A stretch of DNA of 27,335 nucleotides, from positions 1-27,335 of the IMG/VR virus record IMGVR_UViG_3300025418_001194, one strand, 5' to 3'. Made by a program: the position numbers and the translations under genes. Shown here piece by piece: positions 15,925 through 20,895 of this stretch. The stretch comes from a virus. The notes under the pieces were generated by a model, which ran no database searches, had not been told where the DNA came from, and worked only from the letters and a program-made list of their open reading frames with translations. Within the stretch, counting starts at the first letter, position 1. The number at the start of each line of letters is the position of its first letter.

Positions 15925-15936
15925 TTTAATCTCCAT
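15922..15936 (-). promoter_or_regulatory. 15-nt start module overlapping the HNH stop
   Basis: ATGGAGATTAAA+ATG contains the stop codon TAA of the HNH gene in one frame and the ribosome site and start of the 73-aa gene in another. Confidence 0.6.
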
Positions 15937-16426
15937 TTCTAAAGTATTCACCGTGATATTTTTTGGCTTCTCTAATATAAGCTGCGTGTGCATCATCTGG
16001 AGTATCATAAACTCCTAAATATTTATATTTTCCTTTTATTGTTATAAACGCCTCATATCTACAACCTTTATTTATTACTCTTACACCTTTCATTTTAAAT
16101 TTATTTTTTGTTTTAGAATTTGCATTATTTTGTGAGTTATTTGCTTCTCTTAAATTGCAAATTCTATTATCAGATCTATTTCTATTTATGTGATCAATTA
16201 AATTTGCAGGCTCTACACCATAAAACATTTTCCATATTATCCTATGGGCGCGATAACTAATATTATCTATTCCTATATTGATGTATCCATAAGATTTTGC
16301 CCCTGCAATACTGCCAGCCGTAGCTGTGGGGCTTTTGTTTATTTTCCAATATAGAAATCCAGTCTCTAAATCGTAATTAAGAATTTGACGAAGATAAAAA
16401 GTATTTGGTAAATAGTTTTTAGCCAT
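15926..16426 (-). CDS. HNH homing endonuclease with C-terminal AP2-like domain
   Basis: This 166-aa product has the N-terminal NYDLETGFLYWKIN, SYRAHRIIWKMFYG, and the catalytic LIDHINRNRSDNRICNLREA (77-96). The AP2-like domain at about 108-160 includes KMKGVRVI, CRYEAFITIKGKYKYLG and DTPDDAHAAYIREA, ending GEYFRNGD. The architecture equals that of the HNH genes at 720 and 3481. It is AT-rich and, like the 3481 gene, lies just downstream of a strong hairpin terminator (16455-16489). Its ribosome site is poor, so expression is probably low. Its 3' end supplies part of the next gene's start module. Confidence 0.88.
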   Translation of the reverse strand: MAKNYLPNTFYLRQILNYDLETGFLYWKINKSPTATAGSIAGAKSYGYINIGIDNISYRAHRIIWKMFYGVEPANLIDHINRNRSDNRICNLREANNSQNNANSKTKNKFKMKGVRVINKGCRYEAFITIKGKYKYLGVYDTPDDAHAAYIREAKKYHGEYFRNGD

Positions 16427-16502: not shown

Positions 16503-17186
16503 TCAAAATGGGATGTCTTTATCTCCATATTCCCAATCAAATGCAGAAACCCCATCAATCGGAGCAGAAGCATCAAATATTCCCTCTTCTGTTCCTACAG
16601 GAGTTTCTAATGGATTAGATACTCTTAATTTTGTTTTTGTTACTTCCGCCCCGGGGAAGTGTTTTTTAATTTCAGCAATCTCCGGAAAAGCGGAAATCAT
16701 GTTTCCTATTTCTTCAAGGGTATAGATGTTTATCCGACGGCCCTCAGCCAAAACCCTATTGACCAACTGAGGTTCTTTAACAATTGTAGCCACCGTCCCA
16801 TCTTTAAGCGTAACTTCCCATATCGCTGGGTCCAGCACCTGTGCACCTGATTCGGTTGCCGCCTTGTCGAGCGCATTCCAAGCCTTGACCATTCTTCTTG
16901 CTTCTCGCCTGACGTCTTCAAGGCTTCCGTCCCATCTTGCTTGGCTTGTTAAATACTTTTGTCTATCAAACTTTTCCCGCAACTCTGTAGACACTAATAA
17001 ACGCAGCCTATCACGTCCCCATTTTATTTCCAAAGACACCTCAAGGGCGTCTGCCTCATCTAACTCCGCCCTGCCCGCAATATACGTGCCGGGGGTCTGC
17101 ATCCACTCAGCGGGCTTGTATCCTGAAACAACGACGCCCCTGTCACTCGGGGGTGGCTTCCTCTTCGACCTCGGTTTTACCGCCAT
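16503..17186 (-). CDS. Conserved phage protein with SSB-like C-terminal tip
   Basis: This 227-aa protein has a basic N-terminus (MAVKPRSKRKPPPSDRG), then KWGRDRLRLLVSTELREKFD and QKYLTSQARWDG (about 55-87), a helical middle (EARRMVKAWNALDKAA) and a C-terminal part with YTLEEIGNMISAFPEI and KKHFPGAEV. Similar proteins of unknown function are common in rhizobial phages. The last six residues, DKDIPF, closely match the DDDIPF tip through which bacterial SSB recruits repair and replication proteins. No OB fold is evident. It may mimic or compete for SSB-tip binding, or simply converge. Its start is set by the module at 17198-17184. Confidence 0.72.
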   Translation of the reverse strand: MAVKPRSKRKPPPSDRGVVVSGYKPAEWMQTPGTYIAGRAELDEADALEVSLEIKWGRDRLRLLVSTELREKFDRQKYLTSQARWDGSLEDVRREARRMVKAWNALDKAATESGAQVLDPAIWEVTLKDGTVATIVKEPQLVNRVLAEGRRINIYTLEEIGNMISAFPEIAEIKKHFPGAEVTKTKLRVSNPLETPVGTEEGIFDASAPIDGVSAFDWEYGDKDIPF

Positions 17187-17585: not shown

Positions 17586-17828
17586 TCAATTCGCCGTGAA
17601 GATTACAACGTCGCCGTGGTCGAAGTCAACGCCCGTCGCTCGGCGCAGCAAGCGGCGCAGCACCAGCGCAGCCGCGCAGCGGAGCGGGGTGGGGATTATA
17701 AGGGGAGGGGGCAGGCTTCCGTAACAGCTTCCGTGAGTTTTAACAACAAAATCAACGCTCTTGTTACGGAAGCCTATACGGAAGCCTACGCTCCGGAAGC
17801 CTCGTGCTTCCGTAAACATATACATCAT
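17586..17828 (-). CDS. Possible 80-aa ORF carrying the 10-mer repeats
   Basis: An ATG overlapping the primase-helicase stop (ATGATG) opens 80 codons that fill the gap exactly up to the next tiny gene. That spacing argues for a real, coupled cistron. The first 25 codons are made of the DNA repeats and read ARGFRSVGFRIGFRN. The middle reads through the G-quadruplex as LPPPLIIPTPL. Only the end (RRATGVDFDHGDVVIFTAN) looks like ordinary protein, with GC-rich third positions. It may instead be noncoding origin-type DNA that happens to be open, or an older gene whose N-terminus was invaded by repeats. Confidence 0.4.
   Translation of the reverse strand: MMYMFTEARGFRSVGFRIGFRNKSVDFVVKTHGSCYGSLPPPLIIPTPLRCAAALVLRRLLRRATGVDFDHGDVVIFTAN
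17643..17680. repeat. Four GCGCAGC direct repeats
   Basis: Copies begin at 17643, 17655, 17666 and 17674, spaced 12, 11 and 8 nt. They lie beside the G-quadruplex motif and the 10-mer cluster. They could be iteron-like protein sites; within the overlapping ORF they would encode a Leu/Arg-rich segment. Confidence 0.5.
17686..17711 (+). other. Canonical G-quadruplex motif
   Basis: Four G-tracts of 4, 4, 4 and 5 bases are separated by loops of 1, 7 and 1 nt. This is a strong match to the intramolecular quadruplex rule. The G-rich strand is plus, the non-template strand for the leftward operon is minus, so the leftward transcript would carry the C-rich form. Confidence 0.75.
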
Positions 17829-17886
17829 TGATTTTGCTCCACATTTTCACGGAAGCTACCTATTGGGCTTCCGGGAGGCTTCCGTA
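17714..17886. repeat. Cluster of nine GGCTTCCGTA-type 10-mers in both orientations
   Basis: Forward copies begin at 17714, 17726, 17805, 17866 and 17877. Reverse copies (TACGGAAGCC type) begin at 17765, 17777, 17792 and 17848. The heptamer core GCTTCCG is intact in all nine. The copies at 17714-17726 and 17762-17774 extend to a perfect 13-bp inverted repeat, and 17764-17773 with 17806-17815 form a perfect 10-bp one. The cluster crosses the end of the primase-helicase gene. A binding array, origin or recombination-prone repeat is likely; it is not a CRISPR array. Confidence 0.8.
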
Positions 17887-20056
17887 AAAAATGTGTGCCA
17901 TTTCGGAACATTTCTGATATTTGCAGGCCTTTTAATTTTGTATCTTTATTTCTCGTCTTCACGCTCCACCACCCCCTTTCGACGAAATCCTGAGCAAACA
18001 GAATCGCGTGCTTGTCATCCTTGATTCGCCTTTTAAGGATCTTCGTAAGGGCCACCTTGATATGGCGCTCAGTGAATTTCTGATTGGTGGAGATGGACCA
18101 AGGCTCCTGCTTGTTCCAAGCATCATTGGCTGCATTTAAGATCTGGTCTCTTTCCTCTTCCGTCATTTTTACACCCGCAGCATAAACGAGGCCCGTCTCC
18201 TGCTTGCCGCCGAACCCAGCATCAGGAGCCTTCTTAGGGGCCTCAGTAATGGCCAGTGTAGACTTCAAAGGCTCGACCTCCACATCTTCCAGCCTGAACT
18301 CCATCTCCCACCCGTCGGGCGCAGACTTCATTTTAGCCGCCCTGATAATTCCTATGCTTTCTCCCTTATCTCGCTCCAAGACGACGCAAGTATCCGCCGA
18401 ACCCTCCAACACCGTAGAGCCGCGCATATTGCCAGCGCCAGACCGACTGAGATGGTGGACGAGGCCAGTCGTCGTATTAAATGCGTGCTGGACCTCATTC
18501 TCTGATTTAACGAATAGGCTCATTTCCTTTTGATTGTTTTCGTCAGCTCCGGGAATCACACGAGACAGTGTATCAAAGACCACATAGACGGGTGGATCCT
18601 TCATGCGGCTGATGTTCCAGTCGATAGTCTTGAGGAGCCGCATCCTGTCCCCGTTCTCTAAAAGGTTCATAGCGTCAGGGATGACCAGATAACGCTCCTC
18701 GTCCACGTCCACGTCGTGATACATCTCATATGCTTTCATGCGCGTATAATGGTCGTGGAGGCCCTCTGTGGTGACGTAGACTATGGGGCCGTGGACATTG
18801 ACCTTGCGCCCCAGAAACCTCTCCTGACCCGTCGCAATGGCGATGCAGGAGCCTATGGTATAGAAGCTCTTACCGCACCCCGGCCAACCCGTAATGTAGT
18901 TTGATCCATATCTCTGCAAGAGCCCCTCAATAATAAACTCTGCAGGTGGAAGGGCCTTAAGATCTGACTTTCTAAAGACGCGAAAAAGGCCTTCTGGTGG
19001 TTCCTGTGGTTGTGAAGGCTTTTCTCCATTAAACTCTTCAGGCTTAATTATCTTTGCGTATACAGGCTGGAAGGTCTCATGAGCTGGAGGTATCCAAGGC
19101 TTCTGCGCCTCCTCGGATATCTTTGTATCCCAGCCGCGCATTGTTGAGCGCCACTTCTGGTCGAACAATGTCTTGCCACGACCTTCGCGCTCAAGAAGGA
19201 CATGCTTGGGTGTGCCGAGCTCTTTTAGTCTTGTCTCGACCTCATCAACATAACTGTTGAAGCAATGTATCTTTGCTTTTTCTTCTTCTTCTTTACTGAC
19301 AAATGGACACTCTCTGTATAGGTCCAATACAGCCCTGAAGACAATTTTATACATGCGCTCTTCACGGCCATCTGTGATTTTTCCCCATTCATTTGTTGTA
19401 AATTCTGGTGTTGGAGTTTTTATTCGTTGTCCTGTTATTGCATCAACTGCAGATGTGCCGAGCATATCAATCTCGTCGCACATCCACTTTGGCATTTCTT
19501 CAATTTCAATTGTCCAAGGCTCTTTATCCTCGACCCATCCGTATGTTTTTCCTGATTCATGATTTGATGGAGGCAGCATTGCAAAGCCGCCGACACCTCT
19601 GATGTCAACGCCTAGTTCACTATTCTTGCAGGTGGGACAAGACCATCCTTCAGGCGAAAGGAAAAACATTTGGAAGCCGCCACCGCCTGTTCGCTGGGTG
19701 GGACATTCGGACATGACACCTGCGTTATGTTCAGCATGAACTCCATCCCACCAAATTTGGGCTCTGGGGTTTTTGTGGGTGTCGAGATCAACAACAACGA
19801 TGCGCCGAGGATGCACGCCAGTAATGAGACCCATATTACTGCGAGCGGAATATCTCCCTGTCTTCCCATACCACTCATCAAACTGCTCCTGTGTTGAAAG
19901 CTCATGTGTAAATTGTTTCCAGTTTTCAAGATGAGGTCTTTTCCAGTTTTTTGTTTCCTTGTGCGTGTAAGCAGGAACAACCTGCATACCTATTGAGCGA
20001 TAATATTTTGCGTAGTCTGCCGGCGAGGCAAACTCTTCATCAAATTCGGGTAACAT
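17825..20056 (-). CDS. Prim-pol / RecA-like helicase replication protein
   Basis: This 743-aa fusion begins with a bifunctional primase-polymerase (AEP) domain at about 10-185. Motif I is IVVVDLDTH (86-94), motif II RTGGGGFQMFF (122-132), and ELGVDIRGVGGFAMLPPSNH (147-166) follows. A C-terminal AAA_25/RepA-type ATPase has Walker A GWPGCGKS (390-397), Walker B VVFD (492-495), then HHLSRSG and RGST. It would prime and unwind DNA at phage forks. Motif II normally ends in GG-x-H; here Gln replaces the His. TGAGG lies 6 nt before the ATG. Its last codons are built from the 10-mer repeats (LRKPPGSPIGSFRE). Operon neighbours upstream are RuvC-like and zinc proteins. Confidence 0.93.
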   Translation of the reverse strand: MLPEFDEEFASPADYAKYYRSIGMQVVPAYTHKETKNWKRPHLENWKQFTHELSTQEQFDEWYGKTGRYSARSNMGLITGVHPRRIVVVDLDTHKNPRAQIWWDGVHAEHNAGVMSECPTQRTGGGGFQMFFLSPEGWSCPTCKNSELGVDIRGVGGFAMLPPSNHESGKTYGWVEDKEPWTIEIEEMPKWMCDEIDMLGTSAVDAITGQRIKTPTPEFTTNEWGKITDGREERMYKIVFRAVLDLYRECPFVSKEEEEKAKIHCFNSYVDEVETRLKELGTPKHVLLEREGRGKTLFDQKWRSTMRGWDTKISEEAQKPWIPPAHETFQPVYAKIIKPEEFNGEKPSQPQEPPEGLFRVFRKSDLKALPPAEFIIEGLLQRYGSNYITGWPGCGKSFYTIGSCIAIATGQERFLGRKVNVHGPIVYVTTEGLHDHYTRMKAYEMYHDVDVDEERYLVIPDAMNLLENGDRMRLLKTIDWNISRMKDPPVYVVFDTLSRVIPGADENNQKEMSLFVKSENEVQHAFNTTTGLVHHLSRSGAGNMRGSTVLEGSADTCVVLERDKGESIGIIRAAKMKSAPDGWEMEFRLEDVEVEPLKSTLAITEAPKKAPDAGFGGKQETGLVYAAGVKMTEEERDQILNAANDAWNKQEPWSISTNQKFTERHIKVALTKILKRRIKDDKHAILFAQDFVERGWWSVKTRNKDTKLKGLQISEMFRNGTHFLRKPPGSPIGSFRENVEQNQ

Positions 20057-20421: not shown

Positions 20422-20895
20422 TCAATTCTCCTTCACATCAAATTGAGACTTATATCCATATATTGCGATAAGAGCTGCTTCCGCTCTACCATCATCTTTG
20501 CGGCGTTTGAATTTATCGCTTTCTGGCCACATCATACGCGCCATCTCCAGTGATTGGTTTTTGTCTTTGCTTAACTCTAATGCGCGTTTCCATTTTTGTG
20601 GACTTACAAGTATAGTCGGGACTGAGCACGCTGCCACTACTCCTCTAACCACGCCGTATGAGCACCCAAAATTAAATGAGCTGGTTACTCCTTGGCCACT
20701 GAAAGAGTGAACCGCCTCGATGAAAGCAACGTCGGGATTATACTGGCGAATGATTTTAGCAATTTCATACCCATCGACTGTTTTCCCGTCTATTGGCATG
20801 TCATGTATTCCCACCAGCATTGGGTGTGATGGAAAATAAAAAGAAAGAGCGCCTGTGATTCCGGGGTCAACGCCCATTACACATTTATAGGTCAT
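20422..20895 (-). CDS. RuvC-like Holliday junction resolvase
   Basis: The 157-aa product shows the RuvC RNase H fold. The first catalytic Asp is in MGVDPGITGAL (10), the Glu in VAFIEAVHS (60), and the C-terminal acidic cluster is KDDGRAEAALIAIYG (133-147), followed by a basic end. GVTSSFNFGCSYGVVRGVV is the usual second helix pair. It would cut branched DNA made during replication and recombination so that the genome can be packaged. The start overlaps the previous stop by four bases. The order with primase-helicase and zinc protein is typical of a replication block. Confidence 0.9.
   Translation of the reverse strand: MTYKCVMGVDPGITGALSFYFPSHPMLVGIHDMPIDGKTVDGYEIAKIIRQYNPDVAFIEAVHSFSGQGVTSSFNFGCSYGVVRGVVAACSVPTILVSPQKWKRALELSKDKNQSLEMARMMWPESDKFKRRKDDGRAEAALIAIYGYKSQFDVKEN

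Follow-up and report, generated by a model that had tools for sequence, protein, structure and literature searches.

A repeat array at the end of a primase-helicase gene

What does the dense cluster of short repeats across the 3' end of a primase-helicase gene do for the phage that carries it? Gene and cluster lie in a viral contig of 27,335 nt (IMG/VR record IMGVR_UViG_3300025418_001194, positions 1 to 27,335; "the window" below), and a first-pass annotation read the cluster as origin-like from three ingredients: GCTTCCG-core repeats, GCGCAGC repeats and a G-quadruplex motif. The gene (17825..20056, minus strand) encodes a 743 amino acid protein, our proposed initiator, in which Pfam recognizes a Prim-Pol domain (PF09250) and an AAA_25, RepA-like helicase domain. 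An AlphaFold2 model of its C-terminal domain (residues 629-713; 17918..18172, minus strand) has a winged-helix topology with a pLDDT of about 90, and Foldseek matches this domain mostly, although weakly (best E 0.59), to winged helices.

The GCTTCCG repeats are real: between 17715 and 17885 the window sequence has nine exact CGGAAGC/GCTTCCG words in both orientations, and the most frequent 7-mer of the 245-nt region has 9 copies, compared with at most 3 in 2000 dinucleotide shuffles and at most 3 in every other 245-nt window of the contig. The word is best extended to eight letters, reading NCGGAAGC in the window and NCGGARGT in most relatives. The array of nine 8-mers (17713..17888, no strand assigned), whose layout and position are kept in relatives, has plus-strand copies at 17766-17773, 17778-17785, 17793-17800 and 17849-17856 and minus-strand copies at 17715-17722, 17727-17734, 17806-17813, 17867-17874 and 17878-17885, so that the order on the gene strand is ++-+---++. 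Perfect inverted repeats, also reported earlier, are present and measure 14, 11 and 10 nt. Given the limits of the helicase gene, three of the words lie within its 3' end and six past it, as the earlier placement across the gene end implied. The 8-mer ACGGAAGC has one copy elsewhere in the contig, at 16923. Iteron origins have multiple copies of a short word adjoining the initiator gene, and here nine copies adjoin the proposed initiator gene at a conserved position.

What of the other two ingredients? Four GCGCAGC copies (at 17643, 17655, 17666 and 17674) and a canonical G-quadruplex motif are indeed in the sequence, within a C-rich stretch with small hairpins that follows the array and has no terminator-like T-run in the window. 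The GCGCAGC copies are the arms of a GC-rich hairpin (17637..17686, minus strand); close relatives keep a hairpin there but not the GCGCAGC copies, which are unrepeated in relatives, and we rejected them as iterons. The potential G-quadruplex, a four-tract motif of G-rich tracts (C-rich on the gene strand; 17686..17711, plus strand), is limited to close relatives in the window's own clade, and it was likewise rejected as a core part of the element or as the mark of a G-quadruplex origin. Thus only the GCTTCCG words survive as general iterons. GC skew, proposed earlier as a check, follows gene direction; neither the window nor a 57-kb relative shows a flip at the array, and skew was rejected as an origin marker.

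Two neighboring reading frames were considered. An 80-aa ORF (17586-17828, minus strand) runs through the array from a start in the helicase stop codon; it is open because the array words are poor in stop codons, and it was rejected as a gene since it has no codon-level constraint and its frame is lost in two relatives (L012 and L015). About 55 related loci keep, downstream of the array, a 227-aa gene whose family is unassigned (16503-17186 in the window, minus strand). Nothing in the PDB convincingly matched its AlphaFold2 model (pLDDT 77), and it was rejected as the array's partner because Rhizobium loci and most prophage loci with arrays showed no copy of it.

Other genes of the region include a RuvC-like Holliday junction resolvase (phrog_1770; 20422-20895, minus strand) just upstream of the helicase and, near the replication module, one for an HNH endonuclease of typical homing type, which matches AP2 weakly (15926-16426, minus strand). 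In a related contig (L017, 4872-6065) a window-type N-terminal Prim-Pol (65% identical) is fused to an apparently different helicase type, a combination that suggests module swapping.

An IHF-like site between the words

Sites for a host DNA-bending protein are common, although not universal, in iteron origins, and the window has one by consensus match: AATCAATGATGTA (17821..17833, minus strand), which overlaps the helicase stop codon and agrees at 12 of 13 positions with WATCARNNNNTTR. A close relative (L027) has a perfect IHF-consensus site at the same offset. Of 58 type-A arrays, 19 have a perfect consensus site, compared with 32 of 1567 control windows. The near-consensus TTTCAR-N4-TT is present in 31 of the 58 arrays and in 35 of 978 controls, with only the 4-nt spacing strongly enriched. 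Many arrays have TAAGTCATTGAAATCATT or part of it between word groups, and this sequence fits the IHF consensus when read on the other strand. The factor acting at these sites would, from this agreement, be an IHF-like host protein.

The array in relatives of the helicase

Relatives of the helicase were gathered from viral contigs (mostly metagenomic) and bacterial genomes. At least 6 copies of one 7-mer are present in a 400-nt window at the gene stop in 37 of 94 distinct Prim-Pol/RepA-type helicase loci, compared with 1 of 1369 upstream windows that served as controls for post-stop arrays. When more distant arrays are counted, an array of 5 or more copies is present downstream of the helicase in 66 of 95 loci, and 29 have none within the sequence covered; in freshwater-type contigs the array may sit 0.3-3.6 kb downstream with, for example, DNA methyltransferase genes between. 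Arrays lie directly at the helicase stop in the named phages 16-3, RHph_X2_25, RHph_N65 and EBPR siphovirus 5. They have the same position in three complete, circular phage-plasmids, recorded as plasmids but with phage genes: Caenibius p1, Methylobacterium currus unnamed4 and pMRAD08. No array follows the gene in Bas73, Phelemich, GB2A or Madraxi in spite of their homologous helicases, and a Dhillonvirus with a homologous helicase has GCGGGAC copies. A DNA search of named phages gave no match, and helicase-profile searches of prokaryote genomes gave only a handful of hits. Repeats that were absent or randomly placed in relatives would have spoken against an origin; instead, the array stays at the helicase gene.

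In close relatives, whose helicases are about 50-60% identical, the array is in the same place with nearly the same layout but has a different word (ACGGAAGT in L010, L013, L015 and L027; GCGGAAGT in L011 and L012). The copies within one array change word together, inside and outside the gene (ACGGAAGC, ACGGAAGT or GCGGAAGT), and the in-gene word is spelled with a CGG arginine codon in 6 of 6 close relatives examined, the window included, even though CGG is a rare arginine codon in these helicase genes (1-4 of about 40). The retention of CGG at the in-gene word and the concerted change of the copies show selection on the DNA word itself.

Some loci have arrays of other kinds. L039, L041 and L204-L237 have another C-terminal domain type and other words (CGTGACA, CGGGACA, CCGGACA), and may follow a separate recognition rule. 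Xenorhabdus prophages (L213, L214, L219 and L229) have GTGAGGA arrays right after a RepA-like helicase gene, and in Burkholderia phage BcepGomr the RepA helicase gene is followed directly by AT-rich AAAAATAAAT repeats (L449, 4248-4450).

The word covaries with the wing of the helicase

If the word changes from phage to phage, does the protein that reads it change accordingly? All C-terminal columns were compared with all word positions in 46 loci with the window-type C-terminal domain, and three of the four top column-word pairings involve wing residues, namely 704, 706 and 708, matched to bases 1, 4 and 6 respectively (D704-K708 in the window; codons at 17933..17947, minus strand). Lysine at 706 accompanies G at base 4 in 37 of 37 loci, and other residues there accompany A, T or C in 8 of 9; K or R at 708 is mostly found with A at base 6 (19 of 23) and Q or S with G (19 of 19); and D at 704 is paired only with A at base 1 (7 loci), never G.

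The recognition rule was fixed in writing before further loci were fetched, and only loci with a confidently framed word were scored. Base 4 was predicted correctly in 11 of 12 of these held-out loci (the sole miss, L302, has a wing one residue shorter) and base 6 in all 8 cases that were informative. The base-1 rule, which is post hoc in that it was fitted after looking at the data, was unchallenged by the held-out loci because none has D or V at 704. Independent pairs were also taken from a tree that left out the C-terminal domain; they gave 6 for and 0 against for 706 and base 4 (p 0.03), 7 for and 0 against for 704 and base 1 (p 0.016), and 3 for and 0 against for 708 and base 6, which is not significant (p 0.25); swapped controls were not significant. 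The sister loci L124 and L125, with words ACGGAAGT and GCGAGGGT respectively, are unlike each other in every one of the three residues and three bases, and the later case of Caenibius p1 also conforms to the rule. By these comparisons the word is covariant with the helicase's own C-terminal wing, and the evidence, drawn from dozens of related phages, points to the helicase itself as the reader of the word.

A candidate replication origin and its alternatives

Comparison of the relatives thus ties the array to the helicase gene, shows selection on its word and couples that word to the wing. Since the helicase appears to read a word at its own gene, the cluster is most likely the phage's replication start; we put the probability that the array is an iteron-type origin, with the adjacent primase-helicase as the initiator whose winged helix binds the 8-bp words, at about 0.8. 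We infer the following steps: the C-terminal winged helix would bind the 8-bp words, with the wing determining which bases fit; between word groups the DNA would be bent by a host protein resembling IHF; the helicase would assemble as a ring and open the duplex toward the C-rich and hairpin segment, where priming by the Prim-Pol domain would initiate replication. The first-pass reading of the cluster as origin-like therefore holds up as the best explanation of its conserved position, the wing covariation and the IHF-like site, with initiation itself inferred, although the skew flip that might have accompanied it is missing.

Could the helicase bind the array for another purpose, as a control or incompatibility site (titration, handcuffing or a downstream operator), while synthesis starts elsewhere? 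The lack of a GC skew flip at the array would fit this, as would the arrays that sit 0.3-3.6 kb downstream in some relatives, nearer the conserved 227-aa gene, but Rhizobium and prophage loci carry the array without that gene. Phage P4 requires two repeat sites, which also favors a separate start; the window has one combined site with no second found in the contig, and no second array was found in the upstream flanks. In addition, because the array is downstream of the helicase, the usual action of such a site on the helicase promoter is not possible. We consider this alternative unlikely.

It is very improbable that the array acts as RNA, its paired transcript repeats forming a regulatory structure or a terminator. 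The region does fold better than shuffles (z -6.0 as RNA and -5.4 as DNA) and both partners have changed in 14 of 56 predicted pairs, but inverted copies of a changing word will fold and covary in any role. Some stems have lost pairing with no compensating change (the long stem has a G-G in 2 of 5 relatives), many relatives have words in one orientation only, which makes these stems impossible, there is no Rfam match or terminator, and the covariation with a protein wing would be left unexplained. Least probable of all is a DNA packaging site, a partition site or a repeat-type mobile element: short-repeat clusters are known at such sites and terminase genes on the same strand lie about 4 kb off, but the array tracks the helicase gene across differing genome contexts, its word tracks the helicase wing, and the contig has a lone ACGGAAGC copy outside the array.

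Relation to known replicons

Iterons beside a primase-helicase initiator are an arrangement of a known kind, to which P4, pRN1 and RSF1010 are the nearest systems. The alpha protein of satellite phage P4 is a single primase-helicase initiator with a winged-helix domain that binds origin repeats (ori/crr) (PMC4234260), and the window protein shares this plan of a primase-helicase with a winged-helix origin-binding domain, predicted in its case from the AlphaFold2 model and weak Foldseek matches. The P4 primase is of the Toprim type, whereas that of the window is a Prim-Pol (PF09250), and the words differ. ORF904 of pRN1 has Prim-Pol, helicase and C-terminal winged-helix domains in the same order as the window protein, and a 100-bp stem-loop just downstream of its gene is an origin candidate needed for replication; similar stem-loops have been proposed in phages such as BIP-1, and specific binding could not be demonstrated for pRN1 (PMC4234260). 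Its helicase belongs to SF3, unlike the RepA/AAA_25 helicase of the window, and its single large stem-loop lacks iterons, whereas the conserved element here is a word array; no single large stem can form from the one-orientation words of many relatives. RSF1010 (IncQ) oriV has iterons, the helicase RepA and a primase that acts at hairpins (PMC4234260), but it divides among three proteins (RepC, RepA and RepB') tasks that would fall to one fused protein in the window.

Among other iteron origins, the window shares with R6K and pSC101 the combination of iterons and an IHF site (here a consensus match). It differs from them in iteron length and in type of binder, since iterons of the R6K/pSC101 type are about 20 bp and are bound by Rep proteins that are not helicases.

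The pairing of an AEP primase with a RepA-family helicase is also known from the RepA-helicase-fused archaeo-eukaryotic primases of mobile elements (PMC5862659). The available part of that survey describes the proteins, and neither origin repeats nor wing-word covariation are reported in it. A literature search that lay largely outside the subscription journals returned papers on pRN1, SCCmec, PLE and AEP primases but none on this array. The first-pass statement that the combination is not described is thus too broad as regards iterons beside a primase-helicase initiator; for the variant with a Prim-Pol-helicase, for the way it recognizes its word and for how widely it occurs, we found no description in the literature searched, which was mostly other than subscription journals.

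Implications

With slightly better than even confidence we propose that these loci represent a class of replicon, widespread among phages and phage-plasmids, whose fused Prim-Pol-helicase-winged-helix protein acts as its own origin-recognition factor. The alternate wing residues 704, 706 and 708 would read bases 1, 4 and 6 of an 8-bp iteron beside the protein's own gene, and protein and word copies would switch specificity together, giving many distinct replicons on one scaffold. As to how Prim-Pol-helicase replicators find their origins, the comparison here points to a word, a domain and three specificity positions. It also offers a sequence-based way to locate candidate origins in many environmental phages, prophages and phage-plasmids, and naturally occurring pairs of initiators that are close relatives yet have different words may serve in the study of how replicons become mutually independent.
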